DNA of 64,000 bases from Flavobacterium lacustre (GTDB lineage Bacteria; Bacteroidota; Bacteroidia; Flavobacteriales; Flavobacteriaceae). Shown piece by piece: positions 7,252 to 30,664 of this stretch. Within the stretch, counting starts at the first letter, position 1. Each line of letters starts with the position of its first letter. The translations under genes were made by a program, and so were the position numbers. Below the pieces are notes generated by a model. That model did not search any database. It had not been told where the DNA came from and worked only from the letters and a program-made list of their open reading frames with translations. The stretch covers positions 1,302,001 through 1,366,000 of the forward strand of contig NZ_CP114882.2 of NCBI RefSeq assembly GCF_027474525.2, written 5' to 3'.

Positions 7252-9825
7252 TTATTCCTTTATAAATTTTGAAGTTGTAATCCTTTTGCCGGCATTTATT
7301 TTGATAGAATAAATACCCGCTTTAAGTTGCGAAACATCTATAGCTATCGCATTGTTATCTGTTTTTATAAAAGTTTGAACTAATTGACCAAGTGTGTTGT
7401 AAATAGTTATTGCGTTAATTTCATCTTGTTTTTTATCCACGATATTCAAAATATTTTTTACAGGGTTAGGATGAATTGTAAAAAAATCTGAAAAAACATA
7501 GTTTGGTATTTCTAATGTTTGTATACTTATTGATGCTATGTTTGTTGAAAGGGGATGGGAATAATCGAAATAAATACTTGCTGAGTTTGTTATTTCATCT
7601 CCATTTACAAGAATAGGTATTGTTTTGATTTTGAATGCAACATAGCCTCTATTGTTGTCTGTTTCAAAAGGCAAATTGATATTTTCGAAAATGAATTCCA
7701 CGGATGTATTAGCTGTAATTTTTGTTGTGAATGGATGGCTTCCGTTTATAGGAACAAGTGTTGTAATATCAAATTTTGAGGTGTTAATAATATCTTTCAA
7801 AATTATATTTTTGGCTATTGTTGAACCGGAATTTTCAAAACGAATCATATAATGCAAATAGTCTCCCACTTTTATTGGTGAAATGGTTCTGCCTTCTAAA
7901 CATATTTTATCATTTGAATTTGAATCGGTCACTACAGTTTGAATCAAATCTGCACTATTATCATTAGGTGTTTCGTCTAAGGTATTTGTTATGAGTGATT
8001 TATAGCTTAATAGATGTCCGTCATTTACAGAAGGCTTGACTGTAAAAGTTACTATAATAGTTCGAGTTTCTTGTGGTTGTAAATTTGTAAAATTCCAATT
8101 CAAATTACTGTTGCTTTGAGAGGAAAAGCTTGGATTGGTAGTTACTAAATTTAAAGCATTAGCATCAAAAGTTAGATTTATTATTCCGGATTGTGTTACA
8201 GTTCCTTTGTTTTTGTAGATAGCTTTATACGTGCAGTCATGATTGCTTGTAGCATTGTTTAAGGGCAAAAGTGTAATCTCTAAATCAGTATGGCTGCCAT
8301 TTGGTAGGATACAAAAAGAAGCAGAAAAAGGACTTACAACATCAGGAAAAGTAGCTGACTGGCTGGCTGGAGAGATAGTGTAATAAGTTGGATTTTCTAG
8401 TACAGGTGATATGGTGTAAGTACCTTCTTTTACTCCATGAGAATAAGTGCCTGTCAAATCCGGAACAATTCCTATTGTTGTCACGTCATCAGTAATGGCT
8501 AATTTAAGATTTGGAAAGTTACCATCCAAAGCATCACAACCATTAGTGTTGTAGTCTAGTTTGTTTTTACCTTCAATAGTATAATAATTTCCTCCTGGAA
8601 CAAAGGAACAATAATTATTTACAAAACAATTGGTGTAGCCATTATTCGAAATTTCATCCTGAACATACTCTATCTCTGATTCATCGGCACAGATATAACT
8701 TAGATTTGTATTTCCTGAAATAAGCAGGGAACCTTCAGTGCTACCATTTTTTATAAAAAGACTTTCCAGTTGATTGTTAGCAACAAATAAAAATTGCAAT
8801 CCGGTTTGGTTAGTTGCATCTAAGGAAACAAGTTCATTATTGTTACAATACAAATAAGTAAGATTGGTCAATCCGTTGATGTTTAAAGTTGTAATTTTAT
8901 TATTTGTAAAATCCAAAACTTTTAGGTTCATCAGGCTTTGAACGAGTAATGATTCTAAATTATTGGTAGTACAGTACAAATAAGAAATAGCTGTTAAACT
9001 GGTTGTGTTTAATGCTGTTAGTTGATTATTATTGCAATTTAAATTAGAAAGGTTTACTAATCCATCAATTGTTAGGAATGTTAATTGATTATTAGCACAG
9101 TTTAAGTTGGTAAGATCTTTTAGTGTACTTACATCTAAAGAAGAGAGTTGATTAAAATTACAATTTAAACTTGTGATATTTGTTAACTTTTTTAATTCTA
9201 GTGATTTAAGAGTATTTCTGCTGCATTCAAGTGTAAGCAGACTAATCAAATCATCTAGATATAATGATGATATGGTATTGCTATTGCAAGTTAAAGATTG
9301 AAGATTATTCAGATTGTTCAAATTTAATGACACCAATTTATTGTCGCTGCAATCTACAGTTAGTAGGTTGCTTAAATCATTAGCATTTAGTGTAGTCAGT
9401 TCATTTGATTGACAGTATATATTTTGTAGATTGTTTGCGCCTTGAATTAGAAGTGTGTTTAATATATTATTGTCGCAATTCAAATCAGTTAGTATTGTTA
9501 ATTTACTAATGTCTAAATTGCTAATTTGATTGTTACTGCATTTTAAAGAAACAAGATTTGTGAAGTTTTCAATACCTATTAATGAGCTAATAGAAGAGTT
9601 TTCTAAGTCTAAATAGCCTACTTGTAAGGCCTCAGTAATTTCAATTTCCCCATTTTTATTACTATCAATTGCAATGTAATCTCCGGATAAATTTTGCGCA
9701 ATTGTAGAACTAGCATTTGATTCCAATAATTTTACTTTAAAAATAGCATCAGGAAAAGTTATTGTTTGTGCTGTTAAAGTATTGCTGGCAAAGGCAATAA
9801 TTAATATAAAAAATTGTTTTTTCAT
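7252..9825 (-). CDS. Secreted leucine-rich repeat protein with type IX secretion sorting tail
   Basis: 857 residues. A signal peptide (residues 1-20, ending LTAQ) is followed by a segment with an Asp-rich DSNKNGEIEITEA calcium-loop-like stretch. Then come about 14 leucine-rich repeats of 21 residues (about 70-370), each built around L.CNNNQL..L, the InlJ/BspA-like pattern. A cell-surface DUF7619/DUF11-like region (about 490-765) with repeated YKNKG and FENSGST motifs follows, then a type A Por-secretion sorting domain (about 780-857, FTIHPNPVKNILNI to the end SKFIKE). It is probably exported by T9SS and anchored or released at the surface, where the LRRs could mediate adhesion. The ligand is unknown. 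No operon partner is adjacent. Confidence 0.9.
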   Translation of the reverse strand: MKKQFFILIIAFASNTLTAQTITFPDAIFKVKLLESNASSTIAQNLSGDYIAIDSNKNGEIEITEALQVGYLDLENSSISSLIGIENFTNLVSLKCSNNQISNLDISKLTILTDLNCDNNILNTLLIQGANNLQNIYCQSNELTTLNANDLSNLLTVDCSDNKLVSLNLNNLNNLQSLTCNSNTISSLYLDDLISLLTLECSRNTLKSLELKKLTNITSLNCNFNQLSSLDVSTLKDLTNLNCANNQLTFLTIDGLVNLSNLNCNNNQLTALNTTSLTAISYLYCTTNNLESLLVQSLMNLKVLDFTNNKITTLNINGLTNLTYLYCNNNELVSLDATNQTGLQFLFVANNQLESLFIKNGSTEGSLLISGNTNLSYICADESEIEYVQDEISNNGYTNCFVNNYCSFVPGGNYYTIEGKNKLDYNTNGCDALDGNFPNLKLAITDDVTTIGIVPDLTGTYSHGVKEGTYTISPVLENPTYYTISPASQSATFPDVVSPFSASFCILPNGSHTDLEITLLPLNNATSNHDCTYKAIYKNKGTVTQSGIINLTFDANALNLVTTNPSFSSQSNSNLNWNFTNLQPQETRTIIVTFTVKPSVNDGHLLSYKSLITNTLDETPNDNSADLIQTVVTDSNSNDKICLEGRTISPIKVGDYLHYMIRFENSGSTIAKNIILKDIINTSKFDITTLVPINGSHPFTTKITANTSVEFIFENINLPFETDNNRGYVAFKIKTIPILVNGDEITNSASIYFDYSHPLSTNIASISIQTLEIPNYVFSDFFTIHPNPVKNILNIVDKKQDEINAITIYNTLGQLVQTFIKTDNNAIAIDVSQLKAGIYSIKINAGKRITTSKFIKE

Positions 9826-20000: not shown

Positions 20001-21857
20001 CCTAATATCCAGCTTACACCAGGAGAACACATCCTGCGAATCGCCTTTTCAAGTGGTGAATTTAATTTTGGCAAAATGACATTTTCCCGCACAGGAGACA
20101 TAAGCAATAGTTACCCAACCGCCGTTTCAGGCAGCAAATTAAAAGTGCTTCTGCCTACAACAACAGCAACATTAGACGGTTCAGCAAGTACCGAATCAGC
20201 AGGGAAAACATTGACCTATCAGTGGACACAAAATTACGGACCTACTAAGGTGCTGTTTTCTGATGCAGCGAGCGCGCAACCTGTGATTAGCGGATTAGTG
20301 GAAGGAACCTACAGCTTAAAATTGACCGTTACCAATACTGATTTGCGCACAGATGAAGCCGAATTATTAGTACTAGTAACCAGTACAGCCAATGCATCTC
20401 CAACAGTTTCCCTGATTACACCGGCGGATGGAGCAACATTTACAGAGGGAAAACCAATTACCATTACGGCAAACGCTAGTGATTTTGACGGAACGATTCA
20501 AAAAGTGGATTTCTATGAAAACACAACCTTAATCAGTTCAGATACGACCGAACCCTATACGGCAACATGGAATCCTTCGGCAGCAACCTATGCCTTGACG
20601 GCAAAAGCCACAGATGATGGTGGCGCTCAAAGCACATCCCAAACGGTAAATGTGACTATTGCGCCCTTAATGTCGTGTACCGAAACGTCAACTACAGCAA
20701 CACAAGGTTCGTTTTCTGTGGGTTATAAAGCGACTTTCGAAACCGTAGGCACCGAGGTCAATATCACTTTTGAAATGCTCGATGAGAAATCTGGCGTGAT
20801 TGCTTATCTATGGAAAGAAACCCCTTTTGGTGAAACCGCCATGACAAACGTATCAGGACGCATATTCACCGCAAAACTCAACGGACAAACTCCCGGAACC
20901 ACACTAAGTTACGCCTGTAAGTTTGCCTATGCCGGCGGATTATCAGTAACAAAATACATGAAATATGTAGTGGGAACCAATTGCAGCGGAACGACCAATG
21001 ATACCCAGGCGCCTGTTAATTTCACGGCCACTATTGGTGCTGTGACCGCCTCTTCGGTAGAGTTACTGTTGAATGCAACCGATAATTCCGGAACAGTAGT
21101 CTACAATGTGGGCTATGGTGCAAATACAACGTCAACATCAACCGCTTCCGGAGTGCAAAAATCGCTTATCATTACCGCTTTGGCGCCAAGTACAAGCTAC
21201 ACATTTACCATTTCAGCAACTGATTTGGCCAATAACGCTTACGCCAATAATCCAATTACACGCACCGCCACTACATCGGCAAACACCAATACCGAATGCG
21301 CCGGAACGGCCAGCGATGCGTCACAAGGTTCCTTTGCTGTAGGGTACAAATACGCGTTTGTAACCACGGGAACCGATGTTAAAATTAATTTTGAATTGCT
21401 TGATGCCAAAGACGGAGTGGTCGCTTACCTCTGGAAACAATCGCCATTTACTGAAACCCAAATGACAAATGTTTCCGGCAAAGAATTTACCAAAACCATC
21501 AACAGTCAAATCTCAGGGACTACCATTAGCTACGCCTGTAAATTTGCGTATGCCGGCGGATTATCCGTGACAAAATATTTTTCATATGTAGTAGGAAATA
21601 GTTGTTCATTGGGGATTGACACCCAAACAAAACCCAAACAATTCTTCTTCCCAAACCCGGTGCAGAATGTATTACACATAGAATTATTAGACGCCCAAAA
21701 CAAGATTAGTGTTACCGATATTCTAGGACGTACCCTTGTTCAGGATACCGTTCCGGCCTCTCATAATATAGACATGAGTGCGTTCAAAACTGGGATGTAT
21801 TTCCTGAGAGTAGAAAACACTTTCGGTACCCAAAACCTAAAAATCATAAAGAATTAG
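17091..21857 (+). CDS. Secreted multimodular GH81 endo-beta-1,3-glucanase
   Basis: 1588 residues from the ATG at 17091, chosen because it begins a classic signal peptide (MKKPRSRNSKLTVILFLITV, cleavage after STNA); the frame extends 29 codons further upstream without a signal sequence. A GH81 catalytic domain fills about residues 60-720, with NDWWSKLVKE near 68, HHFHWGYFIH near 448, FSPYAGHCWANGFATF near 500 and QESTSES near 521 containing the catalytic Glu. Then come an Ig-like segment, a CBM6-like module (about 850-1000), PKD-like and Ig-like domains, two near-identical ~100-residue modules (about 1195-1300 and 1400-1505, QGSFSVGYK/AYLWK) around an Fn3 domain, and a type A T9SS tail (1517-1588). 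It should hydrolyse laminarin-type beta-1,3-glucans at the surface. It is transcribed alone. Confidence 0.93.
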   Translation: MKKPRSRNSKLTVILFLITVLFAVSTNAQFVSVGSGGYTKTFPGTDSAGRNGFPSGSPNLSGAAVGKPIPTNDWWSKLVKETQASNLFTYPYTLKTATNGLVVSYIPSGVIDDMLPVTMSVKGMNASKTTVSDYSDWTVTMDWNDGTHNFQATAGIAMPFLYFTKKTTDEAQVTVTSGTVTIDNELLIITNAKNGADFAVYAPVGSTWTQNGGVYTSTLNGKNYWSMAFLPLTAPNVTTVANEYKKYAYVFPTTTTSSFTYNENTAVVITDFNVTTDVKEGTETNMLLGLLPHQWANLATNSPAPDKYNYATVRGEMKTLAGNSFSVENKFHGILPTLPYVDNYSTGFTPTALKEKITAIENDALETWTDSYNEGQVMNRLIQTARIADEMGNTVARDKMLATIKERLEDWLKADSGEVAFLFYYNTTWSALLGYPAGHGQDSNINDHHFHWGYFIHAASFLEQYQPGWAAQWGDMINLLVRDAATTDRNDTLFPYLRNFSPYAGHCWANGFATFPQGNDQESTSESMQFNSSLIHWGEVTGNKAIRDLGIYLYTTEQTAIDEYWLDTKDRNFPVNQQYSLVSRVWGNSIDNGTFWTSDIAASYGIEMYPIHGGSFYLGQDTAYVTKLWNEIKANTGITSNQVNPNLWHDIMWEYLAFIDPAKAIEMYNSNPNRELKFGVSDAQTYHWLHAMNALGRVDATITADNPIAAAFTQNGITTYVAHNYSDTPLTVTFSTGYQLEVPAHKMVTSKDIKIKGVLTASFQQAYVNGSVNLDVVASDGTPTKVEFMDGTVVLGSDTTAPFTWNAANLTLGMHSFYAKVYEGEAFNTTNSVEVQVGNQMPYGGTPSAIPGTIEAGKYDIFEGGKGQNIAYLDVTASNSGDFRMDESVDATSNATEGAIVGFIAKSEWLEYTVNVTQAGTYSFAFRYASGNAAGGGPFQLELDGKSISSAITVPSTSTTSWDVWATKTVPNIQLTPGEHILRIAFSSGEFNFGKMTFSRTGDISNSYPTAVSGSKLKVLLPTTTATLDGSASTESAGKTLTYQWTQNYGPTKVLFSDAASAQPVISGLVEGTYSLKLTVTNTDLRTDEAELLVLVTSTANASPTVSLITPADGATFTEGKPITITANASDFDGTIQKVDFYENTTLISSDTTEPYTATWNPSAATYALTAKATDDGGAQSTSQTVNVTIAPLMSCTETSTTATQGSFSVGYKATFETVGTEVNITFEMLDEKSGVIAYLWKETPFGETAMTNVSGRIFTAKLNGQTPGTTLSYACKFAYAGGLSVTKYMKYVVGTNCSGTTNDTQAPVNFTATIGAVTASSVELLLNATDNSGTVVYNVGYGANTTSTSTASGVQKSLIITALAPSTSYTFTISATDLANNAYANNPITRTATTSANTNTECAGTASDASQGSFAVGYKYAFVTTGTDVKINFELLDAKDGVVAYLWKQSPFTETQMTNVSGKEFTKTINSQISGTTISYACKFAYAGGLSVTKYFSYVVGNSCSLGIDTQTKPKQFFFPNPVQNVLHIELLDAQNKISVTDILGRTLVQDTVPASHNIDMSAFKTGMYFLRVENTFGTQNLKIIKN

Positions 21858-21878
21858 AACCATTAACATAAAATACAA

Positions 21879-21915
21879 ACAGCGCAGTACTGCAAAGTAC
21901 TGCGCTGTTTTTTTT
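21879..21915 (+). terminator. Intrinsic terminator of the GH81 gene
   Basis: ACAGCGCAGTAC (21879-21890) and GTACTGCGCTGT (21897-21908) form a perfect 12-bp stem with a 6-base loop, followed by a T run. Strong terminator 20 bases after the stop. Confidence 0.9.
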
Positions 21916-21940
21916 AGTTTGGGTTGGGGATATATTAAAA

Positions 21941-21999
21941 TGTCAACTTTCCATTAAGCCAATTACCCAAATCCGTTGTAGTAGCGGTTAGCCGTTCGG
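21941..21999 (-). repeat. attC-like half-site A (end of cassette array)
   Basis: It contains CCCAAATCCGTTGTAGTAGC followed by GGTTAGCCG, nearly identical over about 50 bases to the right half of site F (28030-28075). The left arm is missing: beyond 21941 there is no AACGTT and no complementary stem. It is the truncated outer edge of the array, abutting the GH81 terminator. Confidence 0.65.
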
Positions 22000-22048
22000 T
22001 TTTTTATTTATTATCAATTGCTTCAATTTCAAAGTTTTATTATTTTTT

Positions 22049-22333
22049 CTAAACGATGTTTTTTCTTCCGCTGATAAAATAATATGTTCCAACAAAAAAA
22101 CTAAAGCTTATAAATCCGATTGTCCACATTACTTTTTCATTACTTTTTATTCTTGTTGAATTATTCACTTCGTAAATCCCAATAATAATGTAGATTAAAG
22201 TTGAAATTATTGCAATAATTAGAAAAACAGATGAGTTTTCTGTGTGATTAATTTTTAAAAACGCTCCAATTATTGAGAAAAAAAAAGCAAAAGTAAATGC
22301 TTTTTTAAATAAATGCTTTTTTTCGATTTCCAT
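22049..22333 (-). CDS. Small membrane protein, cassette gene 1
   Basis: 94 residues with three predicted hydrophobic segments (about 11-25, FTFAFFFSIIGAFL; 35-53, VFLIIAIISTLIYIIIGIYE; 68-87, MWTIGFISFSFFVGTYYF). It ends in GRKNIV. The K.MW.iGF...G..Y...GRK ending recalls small Bacteroidota membrane proteins related to the phospholipase-D N-terminal/GldL-like helices, without a firm family. It is the sole gene between half-site A and site B. The start codon lies about 50 bases after the site B core. Function unknown. Confidence 0.7.
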   Translation of the reverse strand: MEIEKKHLFKKAFTFAFFFSIIGAFLKINHTENSSVFLIIAIISTLIYIIIGIYEVNNSTRIKSNEKVMWTIGFISFSFFVGTYYFISGRKNIV

Positions 22334-22373
22334 ATTTTTTTTGATTTAAGTATCTTTTACGCGTTACGCCAAT

Positions 22374-22512
22374 GGCACATAACGTTCCGGCGCTTGGCGA
22401 GGTTGCGAACTTCGGAACCGATTATTTTCTATCAAAGATAAAATTTCTTGCGAAATTTAAACGTGAATTTACTACAAAATTCGCAATCTTGCCAAACGCC
22501 TGTTGGCAGTAG
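22374..22512 (-). repeat. attC-like site B
   Basis: AACGTT at 22381-22386 begins the site. A 21-base left arm (22389-22409) pairs with 22480-22500 with three wobble or mismatch positions, and GTTGGCAGTA closes the site. The stop codon of the next cassette gene (TTA at 22513-22515) directly touches the boundary. Confidence 0.75.
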
Positions 22513-23187
22513 TTATTTTAATAATTTACCAATTTCAAATATTTCAGCATATCTAGATGACAATCCAAAAACCAAGACACTTTTCTCGTCAATTATTGCT
22601 TCAATGTTAAAAAGCATTTCTTTGTATTTAGAATTAATCAGGTTTTTTTCTCCTCGATAAGCCTCAAATTTTTTAATATCACTCAAGTAAAATGCAGGAA
22701 CAACATCTACTACAATTGTTGTATCAACTTTTTTCCCATTATAATAAACATCGCCATGTAAGTTTGGTGATAAAGTTATATTTGATATGGTATCATTTCT
22801 ATGTCCAATATATATTTCAAATTCCATTGGTATTACACTTTCCCAACCTCCAGTTATTTGTCCTGTAATTTGAAATTTTCGTGTTTTTTTATCTAAAAAT
22901 ATTTCTTTGGTTATTATTTCTAATCCGTTTCTTTCGGGTTTAGTTGATTTATAAATTATTGAATCACTTTTCGAATCAATGAGTTGCATTTCTGCATCGT
23001 TTTTTGTGTAATCTCTAAAACAAGGAATACCACTAAAAACATTTTTCAGCCAACCAAATTCAAATCTATTTTCATCGACTTTGTATTTTAATAGATTATT
23101 GTAATCAACAATTTGCATATTATCTTGGGCAAGAGTAAATCCTGTCCAGAATAAAAAAAATATTATATTTAAGTAGGGTTTTCTCAT
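22513..23187 (-). CDS. Exported protein of unknown function, cassette gene 2
   Basis: 224 residues from the ATG at 23187. This start is chosen because it gives a signal peptide (MRKPYLNIIFFLFWTGFTLA, cleavage before Q21), while the longer frame reads through attC-like site C. The mature part is beta-rich with no motif I recognise; a segment GWLKNVFSGIPCFRDYTKND is distinctive. The start lies 13 bases after the GTT core of site C, and the stop touches the core of site B. The gene therefore fills its cassette almost completely. Confidence 0.7.
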   Translation of the reverse strand: MRKPYLNIIFFLFWTGFTLAQDNMQIVDYNNLLKYKVDENRFEFGWLKNVFSGIPCFRDYTKNDAEMQLIDSKSDSIIYKSTKPERNGLEIITKEIFLDKKTRKFQITGQITGGWESVIPMEFEIYIGHRNDTISNITLSPNLHGDVYYNGKKVDTTIVVDVVPAFYLSDIKKFEAYRGEKNLINSKYKEMLFNIEAIIDEKSVLVFGLSSRYAEIFEIGKLLK

Positions 23188-23335
23188 AATTACTGCCAAC
23201 GTTCTGGCGCTTGGCGAGGTTGGGGAATAAAGATGCGGGATTTTTCGGTTAAACACAAATTTTGCTGACACAAAACCATCTTTAAATTCAGCCTAAAACC
23301 CCAATCTAGCCAAACGGCTGTTAGTAGTGGTGCCG
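23188..23335 (-). repeat. attC-like site C
   Basis: TACTGCCAACGTT opens at 23191. Arms at 23211-23225 and 23299-23313 pair over 15 bases with two non-canonical positions. GTTAGTAG closes the site. The opening TACTGCCAAC is the perfect 10-base inverted copy of GTTGGCAGTA closing site B, across gene 2. Confidence 0.75.
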
Positions 23336-23929
23336 TTACAATTTTCTAGATTTCAATTCTTTTTGTTCTTCTGTTGAGTTTATACAAAGATTATCGATTA
23401 ACTGTAAATAACTAATTTTTCCTAGTTTATAATATTCCATAAACTCTTCCTTTAATTCTGATAGTTCGCAGCCTTCATTTTTTTGAAATCTAACTTTTAT
23501 GACTGAACTTTCAGTGTTAATTATAATCCAGTTTTTAGTTCCGTTCGATAATTTGTTTTCAAACGAGAATGTCTGATAACCTTCGTATAAACCTAACCAA
23601 TCGACGCCTTCAAATTCTATTTTTTTGATTTTAGTAATTTCAATTACTTTTTGTCCAATAGTTATTTCTTCTTTTGTGAAATTTATGTAACCTATGATTT
23701 TGCCATATAGAGGTTTAGTTTTTCCCATTCCAAAAAATGAAATCAGTAATCCAAATATAAATACTCCACCAGCTAAATAGATTAAAGTTTGAAAAATAAT
23801 ATTTTCATGTGTGCCGTATATTTTCTGAGTAATTATTGCAGAAGCGAATAGAACTATAATAATAGAGTACAATATCAAAGTACGACTTGGATAAAGCGGA
23901 TTTGGTTCGTAAATTGAAAATTTCTTCAT
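23336..23929 (-). CDS. Membrane protein with PH-like domain, cassette gene 3
   Basis: 197 residues. Two membrane helices (about residues 18-36, TLILYSIIIVLFASAII, and 46-67, FQTLIYLAGGVFIFGLLISF) precede a soluble, beta-rich region (about 78-165, ITIGQKVIEITKIKKIEFEG and SVIKVRFQKNEG). That region has the rhythm of bacterial PH-like domains fused to two helices. The C-terminal helix is charged. No catalytic residues are visible and the function is unknown. The stop codon begins inside the closing end of site C, and the start lies about 25 bases after the core of site D. Confidence 0.7.
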   Translation of the reverse strand: MKKFSIYEPNPLYPSRTLILYSIIIVLFASAIITQKIYGTHENIIFQTLIYLAGGVFIFGLLISFFGMGKTKPLYGKIIGYINFTKEEITIGQKVIEITKIKKIEFEGVDWLGLYEGYQTFSFENKLSNGTKNWIIINTESSVIKVRFQKNEGCELSELKEEFMEYYKLGKISYLQLIDNLCINSTEEQKELKSRKL

Positions 23930-23944
23930 ATTCGTTTTTTGGCA

Positions 23945-24086
23945 TCCCTACTAACGTTTTTGGGCTTGGCGAAGGTGGGGTGTAGAAAGCACTAAAGTTC
24001 AAATTTAGTACAAATGCTAATAGAAAGTACAAAAGTTCAGCCTAGCACTAAAGCCCCACTTTTGCCAAACCCATGTTGGGTGCAGT
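23945..24086 (-). repeat. attC-like site D
   Basis: CTACTAACGTT opens at 23950. The 19-base arms (23962-23980 and 24054-24072) are inverted copies except for three transitions. GTTGGGTGCA closes at 24075. The methyltransferase gene to the right ends within this site (stop at 24037), so part of the site is coding. Confidence 0.75.
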
Positions 24087-25614
24087 ATTTCTTTATTATC
24101 CGATTTGTGTTGTCTAAATTTTGGTTGTCGTATGCCGTTATTAATTCGGCTTTGTCACTTGGACTTAACTGTCTGATGTTAGGTATTTTTAGTTGTTTTA
24201 ATACCTGCGATTGAAATCTTGGAAGTCCACCATTCATTCTAATTCCGATTTGTGACATTTGGTATTTGATAAAGTCGGACATTAAAATACTTCCCAATAT
24301 TTTTAGGGATGAAATGTTTTCTGCTGTTATGTAATAGATGTTGTGGTGAGGATAATAATTTCCTTCATCTATAAATAGGAATTTGTTTCCTGTCAAATCA
24401 GGCAACAAGAGTTTTGGTTTTGCAAGTAATTCAGGTTTTATTCTGTCAATAGTTTTATACCATTTATTAGGTGTTTTTTTTGCGGTGTGTCTTTTTAGTA
24501 AAGTGTCTTTGTTGTCATTAAAATAAGTTTGTAAATGAGGGTATAATTCCAAATCACAAAGCCCATCTTTGTCATATGGATTTATTAAATAATTTTCATT
24601 CCAACTGAATGTGTTATTTTTTAAATCTGATGATTTAACTAATGGCAATATTCTACTCTTTTCTATTCCGTTAAGCTCTTTCCCTTTCTTTATAAATATT
24701 TTGTCGGCACCAGTTGCAACACCAATACCTATTTCAAAACCTTGTTCTTCAACTCCAACTAATGCAATATCATTTATATTATAATGCAAGAATAAGTTTT
24801 GCCAAGAATAAGTTTTTGGATTTTCTACTTGTGTAAATTGAATATTACTAAAATCAATTGTTTTTGAATTGTCTTCACAGAAAAGAACCTTTTCGGATTT
24901 TGTATTGTTTTGAATGGTTGTAATACAAGGATATGCCGTAACTGTTTCATCAAATGGGGATGATTTTTCAATATTTAAAATCTTTTTGAGATTGTAATTA
25001 GTTGAAATCTGTTCTCTTAAAATTTTACCATATTGATTGTATAACCATCTGTTTGAGCAAATAAAAGACAGTAACCCATTTGGCTTTAATAACCGAAGTG
25101 AATTTTCATAGAATGGTATGTATAAATCTGCCCTGTATTTAAATGTGTTGAATTTTTGTCTGTAAATTTCTTTCTCAAATTCGGGTATTATTTCGTGACG
25201 TATGTATGGAGGATTTCCAACTACACAATCGTATTTTAAATTAAAATCGTGAGTTAAAAAATTTGTGTTTACACAAATTTTAGAACTCACATTATTTTTT
25301 TGATTAGTTAATTGAAAAATCAATTCATCAATATCATTGCATAAATTTGAAAAGGCTTTTTTGTCTAACTCTACAAATGTCAAATTACGGACAAGACAAT
25401 CTATAAATGAAAAATTATATGTAGAAGATGATTTGAATAAACGGTTGATTATTTCGGTAGCAAATGCTCCTTTACCTGAAGCAGGTTCTAAAATTGTTAT
25501 ATTCCTTAAATCAATCTGCGATAAATAACCTACTTCGTCCAAAATAAATTGAACGACATTTTTATTTGTAAAAATTTCTCCGTGATTTCTCCCGTTTCTT
25601 CTTTCCATAGTCAT
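24037..25614 (-). CDS. Type II N6-adenine DNA methyltransferase (PaeR7I/XhoI-type partner)
   Basis: 525 residues, close to M.PaeR7I (532). A class I SAM-binding region starts with HGEIFTNKNVV (about 10-20), followed by ILEPASGKGAFATEI (motif I, about 40-54). The catalytic motif IV is VVGNPPYIRHEI (about 132-143), marking N6-adenine methylation. A target-recognition region fills the C-terminal half. The start overlaps the nuclease stop by one base (TAATGA). The last 17 or so codons (TQHGFGKSGALVLG) run into attC-like site D. The adjacent XhoI-like nuclease suggests the target is CTCGAG. Confidence 0.88.
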   Translation of the reverse strand: MTMERRNGRNHGEIFTNKNVVQFILDEVGYLSQIDLRNITILEPASGKGAFATEIINRLFKSSSTYNFSFIDCLVRNLTFVELDKKAFSNLCNDIDELIFQLTNQKNNVSSKICVNTNFLTHDFNLKYDCVVGNPPYIRHEIIPEFEKEIYRQKFNTFKYRADLYIPFYENSLRLLKPNGLLSFICSNRWLYNQYGKILREQISTNYNLKKILNIEKSSPFDETVTAYPCITTIQNNTKSEKVLFCEDNSKTIDFSNIQFTQVENPKTYSWQNLFLHYNINDIALVGVEEQGFEIGIGVATGADKIFIKKGKELNGIEKSRILPLVKSSDLKNNTFSWNENYLINPYDKDGLCDLELYPHLQTYFNDNKDTLLKRHTAKKTPNKWYKTIDRIKPELLAKPKLLLPDLTGNKFLFIDEGNYYPHHNIYYITAENISSLKILGSILMSDFIKYQMSQIGIRMNGGLPRFQSQVLKQLKIPNIRQLSPSDKAELITAYDNQNLDNTNRIIKKYCTQHGFGKSGALVLG

Positions 25615-26333
25615 TATTGGTTAAACTCGTGAAGTTGTCCAGCTAATTGCCCTATGAAAGAGTGTAGAAATGCTTCTATTGAAATACTTTCTTCAACATT
25701 ACCATATTCAAAGTTATCCTTTGACCATAATAAACAGCATTGAGAATAGTGTCTTTCAAGCATCAATTTTTGACAAAATAATCGATACCTGTCAATGTAA
25801 GATGTATTATGAAATTCTTCAAATACCTTAAAATAAGGTTCAGAAATTCGAACTGGTGAAGTTGATTTTTGAGATTTCTCAACAATCATCAAATAGCCTA
25901 ACCAAGGTGCAGATTGATTTGGATATGCTTTTTCACGAAAAGCAGTCCATAAGTCAATTGCACTTCCTAATGCTTCTTCTGTTCGGTTATTAAAGTTGTT
26001 ACCAAACGAACCAACTTGAGATTTAAGTTCAATAACTGCAATAAGTTTTTTTGTTGGAGTTATGATAAGCATATCCCAATCTTTTGTCGGTCTAAAATAA
26101 CCTGGTAATTGGTTTCCTTTGGTATATATGCAAGTTTCAGGTATTCCAATGTCAAATGCAACCTTGTATAGTAATTCGATAAAACCATTCAATTGTTTGC
26201 CACCAGTTACAGCACTTCTATTGCCTGTATCGTTTACTTCTCTGTCACCTTGTTCTGTTTTCTGTTTGTTTCTTGTTTCCCAGAAATACTGTATGGCTGA
26301 TTGAATTAGTCCGTTATATTTTTCTATGTCCAT
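25614..26333 (-). CDS. XhoI/PaeR7I-family type II restriction endonuclease
   Basis: 239 residues, matching the length of XhoI/PaeR7I (about 246). Diagnostic segments are GNQLPGYFRPTKDWDMLII (about residues 87-105) with the catalytic Asp, IAVIELKSQVGSFGNNFNNR (about 114-133) with the E-x-K of a PD-(D/E)xK fold, and EALGSAIDLWTAFRE. The family cuts CTCGAG, so that specificity is predicted. The nuclease gene precedes its methyltransferase with a one-base overlap. The cassette start (site E core) lies about 80 bases upstream, and the leader contains a TAACTTTG box (minus strand, 26355-26362) that could be the promoter, making this cassette self-expressed. Confidence 0.9.
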   Translation of the reverse strand: MDIEKYNGLIQSAIQYFWETRNKQKTEQGDREVNDTGNRSAVTGGKQLNGFIELLYKVAFDIGIPETCIYTKGNQLPGYFRPTKDWDMLIITPTKKLIAVIELKSQVGSFGNNFNNRTEEALGSAIDLWTAFREKAYPNQSAPWLGYLMIVEKSQKSTSPVRISEPYFKVFEEFHNTSYIDRYRLFCQKLMLERHYSQCCLLWSKDNFEYGNVEESISIEAFLHSFIGQLAGQLHEFNQ

Positions 26334-26404
26334 TTATTCGTTTTATTGTCTATGCAAAGTTACAAATTTTAGTCGCAAATTTGTCGGTTATGCGGTCTCT
26401 TAAT

Positions 26405-26547
26405 ATTGCACCCAACGTTCCCTTGCTACAAGAGGTTTGGGGTTAAATTAAGCCTTATCTTCGGATTTGCCTAAACTTCCCAAATACAAGATCCTTTTTA
26501 AATTAAGCCAAATGCCCAAATCTCTTGTAGCAAGTGTTATCAGCTGG
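26405..26547 (-). repeat. attC-like site E
   Basis: It opens ATTGCACCCAACGTT. Arms CTTGCTACAAGAGGTTTGGG (26422-26441) and its inverted copy (26515-26534) pair over 20 bases with a single G-T wobble. GTTATCAGC closes the site. The opening 15 bases are the inverted copy of the end of site D with one transition. The interior (TTAAATTAAGCC, TTCGGATTTGC) is shared with site F. Confidence 0.8.
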
Positions 26548-27919
26548 GCTTTTCGCCGTTATCTTTTTCAAAATTTATATTTTTAATAGTATTCTGATAT
26601 TTCATTAACATAGTTGAAGGTAATATATTATCAAAAAGTATTTTTGAAAAGAAGCCTTGTCCTAAAAATGCTTCTCTACCATCAATTTCGATTTTAATTC
26701 CTTTGTTTTTAAAGGAAAATATTTCCTTTGGATTGTATTTTGAATTGTCTAAATATTTATGTAATTCTTTGGAACTTGACCACGATGCTTTTACTCCAAG
26801 TTCGTTAGAGAATTCAATAAGTTTATCATAATCAATTCCAATATAAATTTTTATCCTCCCTAAAACTAAATCAATTATATTTTCGTCAATTATCGGTTTT
26901 AAGAAAATAGGCTCACAAATTGTAACTCCTCTACCAGTCATTAAATCATAGAAAGGAAAAGCTTTGCATAATGATTTCATAGTAAATTGTCCGTGCATTC
27001 TCCAGTCATTTTTATAGACTCCAAGATGAACAATTCCCTCAATGCAATCATAAGCCCAATCTTTTTCATCTAATTTTTTAATTAAATTTGTGATTATAGA
27101 AAGATAAGTTTCTATTTCAAAATCATTTTCAACAATATGAACTGTTGTGTCATTATATTTTGGGTCTTTACCTTTATTATCTTTAATTATTTTTGATGCT
27201 CTTTCCGTTTTTGCATTTTGATTAAGCATCCGTTTTAATTGCTTAATAAATTTTTCATCAAACTCTTCTACTAATTCTTCTTCCTTAAAGTTTTCCTCTT
27301 TTAATTCTTTTTCTTTGATGACATCAAGTGCCTTAAAATTAGTTTCACCAGATTTTATTTCTGATATTTTTATTCCATCTTTATCCGTGATTAAGCAGTC
27401 ACCTAATTGGATATTATTCGTAATGTCACAAATTAAACAAAAGGCATCTGGATTAGAATTTATTTCGTCAGCAAATTGAATTACAAATTCAAAAGATTTA
27501 TCAAGTAAGTCTTTATTGCCTGTTTCATATGTGTAAAGTCTTCTGTATAAATAATGTTGACCATTTAACATCTGCCAAGCGATTGTATCAGCTAAATTTC
27601 TATAAATATCAGATTGATAATCTAAAATAGTTGTCTGTTTTGTTAGATTATTTTCAGCTTCTTTATTACGTTCTCTTTTTGCTTGTTTTATTTCTTCAAA
27701 GTAATTTTTGGATTTTACTTGCAATAATTTGAGTTCTTCAATTATTTTGATTTGGGCAATTTTAAAACCTTCAAAACAAAGTCTATTAAGTTCTTTTGGA
27801 TCAAATTCTACAGATGGAGTTTTTCCTTTGAACATTGTATAAACACCATATCTTGATGAATAAAAAAAGATTTCTTTTATCTTATCTTCAAATACTTTTT
27901 GGTCTTCTTCAATGTCCAT
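26540..27919 (-). CDS. Unknown 459-aa protein with a possible PD-(D/E)xK nuclease core, cassette gene
   Basis: 459 residues, soluble. I recognise no full-length family. A Lys/Glu-rich coiled-coil part (about residues 50-95) is followed by IQLGDCLITDKDGIKISEIK (about 171-190), whose spacing GD...D..I.I.EIKSG fits the catalytic core of PD-(D/E)xK nucleases. A second acidic coiled stretch follows (KEKELKEENFKEEELVEEF). The C-terminal half contains GVYKNDWRMHGQF and DGREAFLGQGFF. A standalone defence nuclease is a reasonable guess, unproven. The stop codon (26540-26542) lies inside the closing core of site E, and the start is about 25 bases from the core of site F. Confidence 0.6.
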   Translation of the reverse strand: MDIEEDQKVFEDKIKEIFFYSSRYGVYTMFKGKTPSVEFDPKELNRLCFEGFKIAQIKIIEELKLLQVKSKNYFEEIKQAKRERNKEAENNLTKQTTILDYQSDIYRNLADTIAWQMLNGQHYLYRRLYTYETGNKDLLDKSFEFVIQFADEINSNPDAFCLICDITNNIQLGDCLITDKDGIKISEIKSGETNFKALDVIKEKELKEENFKEEELVEEFDEKFIKQLKRMLNQNAKTERASKIIKDNKGKDPKYNDTTVHIVENDFEIETYLSIITNLIKKLDEKDWAYDCIEGIVHLGVYKNDWRMHGQFTMKSLCKAFPFYDLMTGRGVTICEPIFLKPIIDENIIDLVLGRIKIYIGIDYDKLIEFSNELGVKASWSSSKELHKYLDNSKYNPKEIFSFKNKGIKIEIDGREAFLGQGFFSKILFDNILPSTMLMKYQNTIKNINFEKDNGEKPS

Positions 27920-27933
27920 ATTTTTGGTTTTAG

Positions 27934-28078
27934 CCTTGCTGATAACGTTCTGCTACTACAGCGGGTTTGGGACTAAATTAAGCCCTATTTTCGGATTTGC
28001 AAAATCATGCCAAATACAAAACCATCTTTCCATTAAACCAATTGCCCAAATCCGTTGTAGTAGCTGTTAGCTGTAGCC
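27934..28078 (-). repeat. attC-like site F
   Basis: It opens GCTGATAACGTT. Arms GCTACTACAGCGGGTTTGGG (27952-27971) and its inverted copy (28045-28064) pair over 20 bases with two G-T wobbles. GTTAGCTGTAGCC closes the site. The opening GCTGATAAC is the perfect inverted copy of GTTATCAGC ending site E, across the 459-aa gene. Confidence 0.8.
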
Positions 28079-28080
28079 TT

Positions 28081-28602
28081 TTAATTTAGTTTCAGTTTCA
28101 TCATTATGTCTGTTTGTTCATCGTCTCCCAATTTAAAAATGTGTTTGTCAAATGCAACAAAACCATTTTTTTCATAAAACCGGATTGCTCTTGGATTTTC
28201 TTCCCAAACACCCAACCAAGCATATTCAGAACCTTTATGTTTAGCAACTTCGATTGCTTTACTATAAAGTAATTGACCAATGCTTTTTCCATGAAATTCT
28301 TTTGAAACATAGATTCTCTCAATTTCAAGTGCTTTATTGTCTTTCAATTCGGTTTGCGATTCTCCAAAATTGACTTTTAAATAGCCTATTACTTCATTAT
28401 CAATCTTCGCAAAGTAAAACTCGGAATTTTCATTGTTTAGTTCTGTGGTTAATTTTTCAACTGAGAAACCTTCTTTGAGATAGGATTTCATGTTTTCCTC
28501 GGAATTTGAATCTGCAAATGTTTCCTTAAAAGTTTGCAACCCAATTTTTTGTAATTCGTTAATATCACTTATTGTTACTTTTATAATTGTTATGGGTTTC
28601 AT
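28081..28602 (-). CDS. GNAT N-acetyltransferase, PaiA/spermidine acetyltransferase-like
   Basis: 173 residues of the GNAT fold. The acetyl-CoA binding segment is IYVSKEFHGKSIGQLLYSKA (about 100-119, the R/Q-x-x-G-x-G/A variant HGKSIG). It is followed by AWLGVWEENPRAIRFYEKNG (about 132-151) and FKLGDDEQTDIMMK, a pattern typical of PaiA-type polyamine acetyltransferases. The natural substrate is not certain. It is the last gene of a three-gene unit (12 bp after the second GNAT gene) and ends three bases before the boundary of site F. Confidence 0.85.
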   Translation of the reverse strand: MKPITIIKVTISDINELQKIGLQTFKETFADSNSEENMKSYLKEGFSVEKLTTELNNENSEFYFAKIDNEVIGYLKVNFGESQTELKDNKALEIERIYVSKEFHGKSIGQLLYSKAIEVAKHKGSEYAWLGVWEENPRAIRFYEKNGFVAFDKHIFKLGDDEQTDIMMKLKLN

Positions 28603-28613
28603 TTTAAATTTTT

Positions 28614-29081
28614 TTAGGCGTTATGTTTTAAATTCCATTCATAATTAAGCCAATCGTTGTTTTCTTTGGCTCCCAATTTTTCATAAAATTTTTTGCCTCC
28701 TTCGTTCCAGGGTGCAACAGTCCATTTTATTTGTTCGCAATTATTTTTTATTGCTTCTTCTTTTAGCGCTAACATTAATTTTTCGCCAATTTTATGACCT
28801 CTATAATTTTCATCAACATATAGTTCTTTCATATAAATTGCTGGTCGGTTTTGTGCTGTATAAGGTAGAAAATAATAAACGAGAATTCCCGTAATTTGCT
28901 CGTTGTATTCAGCAACAATACAATAGAAGTCTGGTGAATCCTTTCGAAAGCCACTCTCTTTTACTATTTCAGGAGTTATAGCAAAACTGTCAATGTATTT
29001 TTCAAAAACAGCCAATTCTTTCATTATGTTCCAAATTTTTTCACTGTCTTTTTCTACAGATTTTCTTATTGTTATATTCAT
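28614..29081 (-). CDS. GNAT N-acetyltransferase, diamine acetyltransferase (SSAT)-like
   Basis: 155 residues from the ATG at 29081 (MNITIRKSVEKDSEKIWNIM). The frame is open 18 codons further but those residues are not conserved-looking. The GNAT core is YMKELYVDENYRGHKIGEKL (about 82-101), and the C-terminal WNEGGKKFYEKLGA segment with a preceding PAIY resembles SSAT-type diamine acetyltransferases, which modify polyamines or thialysine. It sits between the Crp-like regulator and the PaiA-like gene, all co-directional, suggesting joint control. Confidence 0.83.
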   Translation of the reverse strand: MNITIRKSVEKDSEKIWNIMKELAVFEKYIDSFAITPEIVKESGFRKDSPDFYCIVAEYNEQITGILVYYFLPYTAQNRPAIYMKELYVDENYRGHKIGEKLMLALKEEAIKNNCEQIKWTVAPWNEGGKKFYEKLGAKENNDWLNYEWNLKHNA

Positions 29082-29152
29082 TTTTTCTAAATTTTGGACA
29101 AAGTTCTGAATATGGTCTGAGGAAAAATTATACAAATGATAAAAAATGAATC

Positions 29153-29716
29153 TTATTTTATATTTGTTCTAATACGGCTTAAACTTACTTGTGTTATGCC
29201 TAAATATGAAGCGATGTACCCTAGTTGAACTCTTTGAATCAAGTCTGGATAGTTTTTTAAAAGTTCAATATATCGTTCAGTAGCAGTTCCGAGTTGTCGG
29301 GAAATAAGTCTTTCTTCTGCTTTTATGAGTTCATTTTCTGCGAACTTTCTACCCCAATTTGCAATTTCAATATTCTCATTAAATAGATTTTTAAGGTTTT
29401 CCGTGTTAAGTTTATAAAGAACACAATCTTCTAATAGCTCGATGCTTTCATATCCTTTTTGATTGGCTATATAGCTTTTCAAAGAAGCTATTGTATCACC
29501 TTCTTTTCCAAAAGAAAAGGTAATTTCGTCATCGTCTATAATAGAAAATGTCCGAGCTATTCCTATTTTGATAAAATAGATATTTTTTTCAATCTTGTCA
29601 GCTCGTATGATAATGCTATGTTTGGGAAAATTTACTTCTTCAACATTTTTTTTGAGCATAAGTTTAGCTGACGAAGAAAGTGGATGTATTTTGTCTATTA
29701 TTTGGTCAATATCCAT
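29153..29716 (-). CDS. Crp/Fnr-family transcriptional regulator
   Basis: 187 residues, typical for Bacteroidota Crp-like proteins. An N-terminal cyclic-nucleotide-binding-like beta-roll (about 10-115, NIYFIKIGIARTFS and FSFGKEGDTIAS) joins, through a long helix, a C-terminal winged helix (about 145-187, LGYIASYLGITQVSLSRIRT, the recognition helix). No Cys set for an Fe-S cluster is visible, so it is not a canonical Fnr. Its start lies about 35 bases after GTTAGCTGTAACC, the boundary of the first cassette, and two acetyltransferase genes follow. It may regulate them, or only share the cassette. Confidence 0.88.
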   Translation of the reverse strand: MDIDQIIDKIHPLSSSAKLMLKKNVEEVNFPKHSIIIRADKIEKNIYFIKIGIARTFSIIDDDEITFSFGKEGDTIASLKSYIANQKGYESIELLEDCVLYKLNTENLKNLFNENIEIANWGRKFAENELIKAEERLISRQLGTATERYIELLKNYPDLIQRVQLGYIASYLGITQVSLSRIRTNIK

Positions 29717-29737
29717 TTTTATCAGATTCTGTTATAA

Positions 29738-29750
29738 GGTTACAGCTAAC
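29738..29750 (-). repeat. Cassette boundary G (no attC-like arm beyond it)
   Basis: GGTTACAGCTAAC is the inverted copy, with one transition, of GTTAGCTGTAGCC that ends site F. It is not followed by AACGTT or by a palindromic arm, so it looks like the outer junction of the array, comparable in position to an attI/first-cassette junction. Confidence 0.55.
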
Positions 29751-29760
29751 TAGTTTATAG

Positions 29761-29821
29761 GTCTGACAAAGTCAGACATATCACCCCTTATTTGGGTAGA
29801 TAGGTCTGATAGACATCAGAC
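29761..29821. repeat. Pair of GTCTGA palindromes
   Basis: GTCTGACAAAGTCAGAC (29761-29777) and GTCTGATAGACATCAGAC (29804-29821) are two hairpin-forming palindromes with related arms, 43 bases apart start to start. They lie just outside the cassette array and upstream of the Crp-like gene. They may be operators for that regulator or remnants of a small repeat element. Confidence 0.6.
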
Positions 29822-29938
29822 TTTATTGATTTTCAAATATATTCATTTTTTCCTACAAATCATCTAATAGGCTTTAATTCTTCGAGAACTTTTCGTACAT
29901 ACGAGCGTTAGTTCATTGGGTACACTAACCCACAACCA

Positions 29939-30626
29939 CGATTCTTGTGCCTGCAGTTGCGATTCTCCTACCTGTCATCACGATTCTTGTGCCTGCAGTT
30001 GCGATACTCCTGCCTGCAGTCACGATTCTCCTGCCTGTCATCACGATTCTCGAGCCTGCAGTTGCGATTCTCCTACCTGTCATCACGATTCTTGTGCCTG
30101 CAGTTGCGATACTCCTGCCTGTACTTACGATTCTCGAGCCTTTAGTTAAGATTCTCGTATGCATTTCACGATTCTCGCATGCATTTCACGATACTCGTAT
30201 GCATTTCACGATTCTCGCATGCAATTCACGATTCTCGTATGCATTTCACGATATTCGTATGCAATTCACGATTCTCGTATGCATTTCGCGATACTCGTAT
30301 GCATTTCACGATTCTCGCATGCATTTCGCGATTCTCGTATGCAATTCACGATATTCGCATGCATTTCACGATTCTCGTATGCACATTTAGGATATTGCCA
30401 TGCGCATTTAGGATATTGCCATGCACATTTACGATTCTCCTATGCACATTCACGATATTGCCATGCGCATTTGCGATTCTCCTATGCACATTTAGGATAT
30501 TGCCATGCACATTTACGATTCTCCTATGCGCATTCACGATATTGCCATGCGCATTTGCGATTCTCCTATGCACATTTAGGATATTGCCATGCGCATTCAC
30601 GATATTGCCATGCACATTATGATACG
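29939..30626. repeat. Minisatellite, about 33 units of 20-21 bp in three blocks
   Basis: Ten 21-bp units (29939-30148, CGATTCTTGTGCCTGCAGTTG-type, shown by its first 20 bases CGATTCTTGTGCCTGCAGTT) are followed by eleven 20-bp units (30169-30388 and the preceding transition unit, CGATTCTCGTATGCATTTCA). Twelve 21-bp units (30390-30626) alternate GGATATTGCCATGC and CGATTCTCCTATGC starts. Every unit keeps CGAT at its start and mostly a TGCA or TGCGCA palindrome near its middle. Because 21 is a multiple of three, spurious repetitive frames are open on both strands. No start signal supports translation. The tract lies between the minus-strand gluconokinase end and the Crp-like regulator region. Confidence 0.9.
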
Positions 30627-30664
30627 CACAAAGACAGAACCGTTGGCACCGCTTTTACGATACA

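Follow-up and report, generated by a model that had tools for sequence, protein, structure and literature searches.

Evidence for an attI-like insertion site and an integron-like cassette array in Flavobacterium, with a linked tyrosine recombinase in relatives

We analyzed a 64,000-nucleotide stretch of the Flavobacterium lacustre genome (contig NZ_CP114882.2; hereafter the window), in which a run of minus-strand genes is interrupted by imperfect palindromes. In minus-strand direction, the locus runs from 29751 to 21944 and comprises an insertion site, then five complete cassettes and then a truncated end. We are highly confident that it represents an attI-like insertion site and the cassette array of an integron-like system of Flavobacterium and some other Bacteroidota, the dedicated tyrosine recombinase of which is absent from this genome. 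An earlier reading of the same letters, made with the help of a list of open reading frames (ORFs) and called here the sequence-only reading, had counted eight minus-strand genes. The ORF count gave nine across the array, separated by the sites B to F (~128 nt each) and the half site A.

All features of the array lie on the minus strand. The first cassette, F, carries three genes, encoding a cyclic nucleotide monophosphate (cNMP)-binding, Crp-like protein (29153..29716) and two GNAT acetyltransferases (28614..29081 and 28081..28602), and is followed by site F, an attC-like hairpin (27943..28070) whose folding-favoured strand is the plus strand. Sites E, D, C and B were placed by hairpin alignment and covariation. 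The gene of cassette E (26540..27919) encodes 459 amino acids (aa) with no function assigned and precedes site E (26413..26540). Cassette D (24037-26333) holds, within a single cassette, an XhoI-like restriction-modification pair: an XhoI-family restriction endonuclease (25614..26333) and an Eco57I-family methylase (24037..25614), the ORF of which extends into site D (23952..24079). The earlier claim that stop codons abut the following site fails for this methylase, which stops at 24037, ~40 nt inside site D. Cassettes C and B each contain one gene with no function assigned, of 197 aa (23336..23929) and 224 aa (22513..23187), followed by site C (23197..23325) and site B (22380..22508), respectively. 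The terminal unit A consists of a 94-aa gene (22049..22333), whose match to DUF2231 was weak and below the cut-off, and the truncated half site A (21944..21995). This half site, proposed from the letters alone, proved real, with 90% identity to the corresponding half of site F. Since no pairing exists between the arms of A and B, we regard the last unit as composite or truncated.

Directly upstream of the first cassette lies an attI-like element (29745..29867, minus strand; model R2) that extends beyond what the sequence-only reading had covered, with the junction to the cassette at 29750/29751 (...TATAAACTA|GTT). The element folds into three small hairpins, and 14 of its 15 hairpin pairs had changed on both sides over 41 copies. 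Five attI-like copies are present in the F. lacustre genome, and a ~120-bp element of this kind directly precedes the first cassette in four of its five arrays with a placeable start; across the genus, we found it in 88 of 150 genomes. Two genomes, G138 and G016, carry 18 and 16 attI-like copies, respectively. Within the window copy, GATGATTTGTAG (29853..29864, minus strand) is identical to the sequence with which the recombinase gene of relatives, described below, ends (codons D-D-L-stop), and is likely a remnant of that gene. The same trace, (G)ATGATTTGTAG, is retained in the attI copies of the window and of two further loci of this genome (L045 and L048) and matches the recombinase's last codons in relatives, which suggests that the recombinase gene was lost or that attI spread without it. 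A second short sequence, TATATTTG (29834..29841, minus strand), is promoter-box-like and a possible cassette promoter; similar boxes occur in the attI copies inspected, and they resemble the Bacteroidota −7 box, TAnnTTTG.

Two observations concern the surroundings of these elements. The fifth copy of this genome (G000:C1:3305425-3305546; positions 7426-7547 of locus L111) precedes not cassettes but a gene for a different kind of recombinase (~405 aa); it has long inverted repeats unlike those of the other own copies, and no site was found in the 16-kb locus around it. In the window, tandem repeats of 20-21 bp (CACGATTCTCGTATGCATTTC type) adjoin attI at 29900-30640. We considered such repeats as a part of the insertion platform and dropped the idea, as five of the 12 clusters in the genome lie beside arrays.

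Every complete cassette opens with GTT..., closes with ...AAC and is bounded by inverted arms of ~15 bp. The inversion of the arms across each gene, the central claim of the sequence-only reading, was borne out: in cassettes F, E, D, C and B, the arms match at 13, 12, 13, 12 and 13 of 14 bases, respectively. Across 72 cassettes from F. lacustre and related genomes, positions 4-10 of the arms matched the cassette's own partner at 6.03 of 7 positions on average vs 2.81 for wrong partners, a value reached in none of 5000 permutations, and positions 4-9 each matched in 64-69 of the 72. Position 11 behaves differently: all 72 cassettes have A there in the start arm, but just one has it in the reverse complement of the end arm, and the arms therefore hold a fixed unpaired position. 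The canonical motif invoked in that reading is not followed by the arms. The R-box consensus of IntI-type integrons (RYYYAAC/GTTRRRY) fits 15 of 184 arms, close to the chance level of ~1 in 16.

A comparison of relatives for cassettes cut at GTT points to movement of whole cassettes. An array of a genome attributed to F. galactosidilyticum (G044) contains 11 cassette copies in four groups. Within a group, the copies show 0-2 mismatches between their bounding GTT triplets, whereas the 100-bp flanks of these repeated cassettes match at 27-64 of 100 positions. Similarly, cassette F is joined to attI in the window, and a homolog in another species (G835; 82% identical) is joined to the site of another cassette, the change falling exactly at GTT. 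The gene of cassette B has homologs in the arrays of two other species, where it again sits between sites.

The five full palindromes, B to F, were confirmed and align over ~128 nt with few gaps. They are of two sequence kinds (B-D vs E-F) with a common register and geometry. In the window sites, a 24-pair stem formed in 94.2% of the alignment cells and 15 of the 24 pairs had changed on both sides, values reached in none of 500 shuffles. Among 50 sites of the genus, 18 of 24 pairs showed double changes and 92.5% of cells were paired, vs 35-49% when the partner was slid. The genus sites are thus imperfect palindromes of conserved structure, as the attC sites of integrons are. All 50 genus sites have a G.T wobble at one and the same stem pair, so that the two strands of a site are unequal. 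Folding of the single strands, a further proposed check, gave the lower energy to the bottom strand (relative to the genes) in all five window sites; more widely, it was the better-folding strand in 168 of 245 sites, or in 45 of 63 loci when each locus is counted once. Sites are present in at least 131 of 150 Flavobacterium genomes, site counts from our genus and order scans, which scored a limited number of candidates in each genome, being lower bounds. Searches of plasmids with sites C and F and of phages with site F returned no match.

These hairpins follow genes and covary, which would also be expected if they acted as RNA, for example as terminators or regulators, in an otherwise incidental arrangement. 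They might also end transcripts. We regard the chance that this is the whole explanation as close to negligible: it cannot account for arms paired across genes or for exact duplication from GTT to GTT, and none of the six Rfam matches in 21800-29900 reached the gathering score of its family.

In relatives, the attI-like element lies beside the gene of a ~347-aa tyrosine recombinase, which terminates within the first ~12 bases of the element, and recombinase gene, attI-like element and cassettes follow each other in one direction. The window has the element before the first cassette and no recombinase gene. Among 30 loci, 28 had the element at the 3′ end of the gene, and in one of the two misses the contig stops at the gene; in a second set, which overlaps the first in part, the figure was 65 of 80. 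All 193 sites found in the 80 loci are on the 3′ side of the recombinase gene and on one strand; a site is present in 50 of the 80 loci, and in 40 of the 43 with at least 3 kb downstream. Sites and recombinase also co-occur at the level of the order (sites in 19 of 20 genomes with the recombinase vs 62 of 226 others; Fisher 2e-9), including outside the genus (7 of 8 vs 54 of 215; p 5.5e-4). The integron-like interpretation, first proposed from the letters alone, is supported by this order in relatives together with the exact GTT-to-GTT duplicates. So is the absence of an integrase: the profile of the linked recombinase matched 84 of 150 genus genomes at E ≤ 1e-60, a threshold at which weaker matches may be other recombinases, and F. 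lacustre was not among them; no protein of this genome exceeded the IntI cut-off, the best scoring 73 of 265 bits on TIGR02249.

The linked recombinases themselves are distinct from both IntI and Xer proteins. They reach 198-211 of 265 bits on the IntI model TIGR02249, lack the ~40-residue insert of canonical IntI and have an N-terminal extension. On the equivalog models of XerC and XerD, four of them scored 178-188 of 335.15 bits (TIGR02224) and 188-198 of 329.6 bits (TIGR02225), below the cut-offs, and the recombinase is 25-33% identical to the Xer-like proteins of F. lacustre. Of two structure models, the first was weak (mean predicted local distance difference test score, pLDDT, 68) and the second better (82). 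No Pfam match was obtained for the N-terminal ~67 aa, which lie outside the stretch covered by fold matches and may be similar to the HARP domain. A separate observation concerns a ~288-aa tyrosine recombinase gene in genome G138, present in four repeats among the sites of locus L112 (407-2421, 3433-5444, 6497-8508 and 10362-11225). It is followed by a 387-aa ORF in three repeats and three times stands ~150 bp downstream of a site; a mobile element making use of the sites is one possibility. In our tree, this long-branched protein groups beside IntI, a placement flagged as unsure.

Could the array be an ordinary CALIN (cluster of attC sites lacking integron-integrases), that is, the decayed array of a canonical integron whose normal IntI was once active and is now lost? 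The layout, the hairpins, the single orientation and the GTT edges are as in CALINs, and canonical IntI was found in 84 of 296 genomes of our phylum sample. However, none of the sampled genomes of the genus is among these 84, the arms fit GTTRRRY no better than by chance, and the recombinase joined to the same attI has no IntI insert; we give this explanation a small chance. Alternatively, the host's XerC and XerD, which belong to the enzymes that resolve chromosome dimers at dif, might move the cassettes, the attI-linked recombinase being incidental. In favor of this, F. lacustre has sites and only Xer-like and other recombinases, and the linked recombinase is missing from many genomes of the genus. 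We nevertheless consider it very unlikely, since it explains neither why recombinase, attI and one-way arrays are linked in many species nor why recombinase and sites co-occur.

It is also conceivable that the palindromes are mobile repeats, similar to miniature inverted-repeat transposable elements (MITEs) or repetitive extragenic palindromes (REPs), that were inserted between genes. Hairpins at least 95% identical between genomes adjoin unrelated genes in 40 of 42 pairs (most loci being treated as separate genomes in this count), as such repeats would. Yet a single orientation is kept throughout the 80 recombinase loci, arms pair across each gene where target duplications would be expected, and the duplicated units contain gene and hairpin together, all of which makes this origin extremely unlikely.

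We therefore favor an integron-like system, for which the following course can be proposed. One strand of a circular cassette, probably the bottom one, would fold into a hairpin with ~15 bp of paired arms and be bound by the recombinase; strands would be exchanged at AAC|GTT of attI, and cassettes would thus be inserted beside attI and may be transcribed from a promoter in its leader. In F. lacustre, the attI copies would be solo platforms, and movement in this genome would need the enzyme in trans. Several points weigh against this interpretation. The case is built from sequence comparison, and no recombination was observed. The grouping of the recombinase family in our tree is weakly supported (78/67), and many genomes of the genus, F. 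lacustre included, hold sites without the linked recombinase, so another enzyme might act there. In the fifth own array (L050), only TATAAACTA|GTT is shared with attI, and the array starts of two single-site loci (L047 and L049) were not found. Finally, homologs of the three genes of cassette F occur in another genome (G741, locus L279) at 81% identity in a 4.7-kb locus in which no site was found. At position 4186 of L050, the first cassette is joined to sequence with nothing of attI other than the shared junction, maybe a secondary insertion site.

A further question is whether gene and hairpin travel together. We compared homologous cassettes, keeping pairs whose match came within 20 bases of AAC; the pairs are not independent, and three of the six diverged ones involve cassettes of the window. 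In all six pairs with genes 75-87% identical (three gene families), the end arm was kept and the hairpins were unlike (identity 0.53-0.65 vs a random median of 0.575), whereas all 19 pairs with genes at least 94% identical had the hairpin in common (0.92-1.00). BLAST matches to the window cassettes stop within about 10 bases of AAC. This sharp end of homology fits hairpin exchange at both edges: an enzyme cutting at both hairpin edges would exchange hairpins among genes. The 40 of 42 between-genome pairs in which near-identical hairpins adjoin unrelated genes are in keeping with this. Alternatively, repeated and independent capture of the same gene could leave unlike hairpins on homologous genes. 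We tentatively propose, as a possibility that is somewhat doubtful, a second, IntI-independent integron lineage whose cassettes consist of two separable modules, the hairpin on the one hand and the gene plus its inverted arms on the other, with hairpins being shuffled among genes. To our knowledge, how genes acquire recombination sites is an open question for integrons; hairpin exchange, if true, would be a route by which they gain them.

Literature matches on integrons, attC sites and CALINs in Bacteroidota and Flavobacteria and on gene uptake in Riemerella included no account of this system among those listed; our comparison took in passages of PMC9024848, PMC9668308, PMC8618304, PMC9892861, PMC8459023, PMC8946536 and PMC13148043. 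According to the passages considered, a complete integron was found in Salinibacter ruber, an earlier study by the same authors having found only In0 in Bacteroidetes (PMC9024848). In our phylum sample, 83 of the 84 genomes with canonical IntI over the cut-off are outside the window's class, and IntI is commoner than these passages suggested. For Riemerella anatipestifer, homology-independent integration is reported of a gene flanked by 27 bp upstream and 140 bp downstream, the downstream stretch folding in the manner of attC; the passages of that 2026 report considered here name no recombinase and no attI (PMC13148043). This species belongs to the Weeksellaceae within the Flavobacteriales, the order of F. 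lacustre. Because further families of this order also have related sites and recombinases, a link between the homology-independent uptake of Riemerella and the Flavobacterium system is plausible, and the linked recombinases offer a candidate enzyme family for this unexplained uptake. A common environmental genus thus appears to run its own integron-like gene capture, which searches built on IntI and canonical attC would probably miss. The system would widen the definition of an integron, and its natural sites, with their fixed arm mismatch, invariant wobble and attI hairpins, would be direct test material for strand choice and cassette origin.

As judged from sequence, the system would work like an integron yet lacks two features that define the IntI family, the recombinase insert and the GTTRRRY arms. 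It resembles IntI integrons and CALINs in that attI adjoins the recombinase gene, a hairpin follows each gene in a single orientation, cassette edges fall at GTT and the bottom strand folds better. Unlike in the usual IntI integrons, the recombinase gene reads towards the cassettes, which is the reverse layout of some integrons. The linked recombinase differs from IntI in having no ~40-residue insert and an N-terminal extension, and from XerA, XerC and XerD in the association of its family with attI and cassette arrays. In contrast to the sites of IntI integrons, those described here have ~15-bp, variable arms with a fixed mismatch instead of GTTRRRY, extend over ~128 nt, have the G.T wobble in all 50 cases, and are accompanied by an attI with covarying hairpins.

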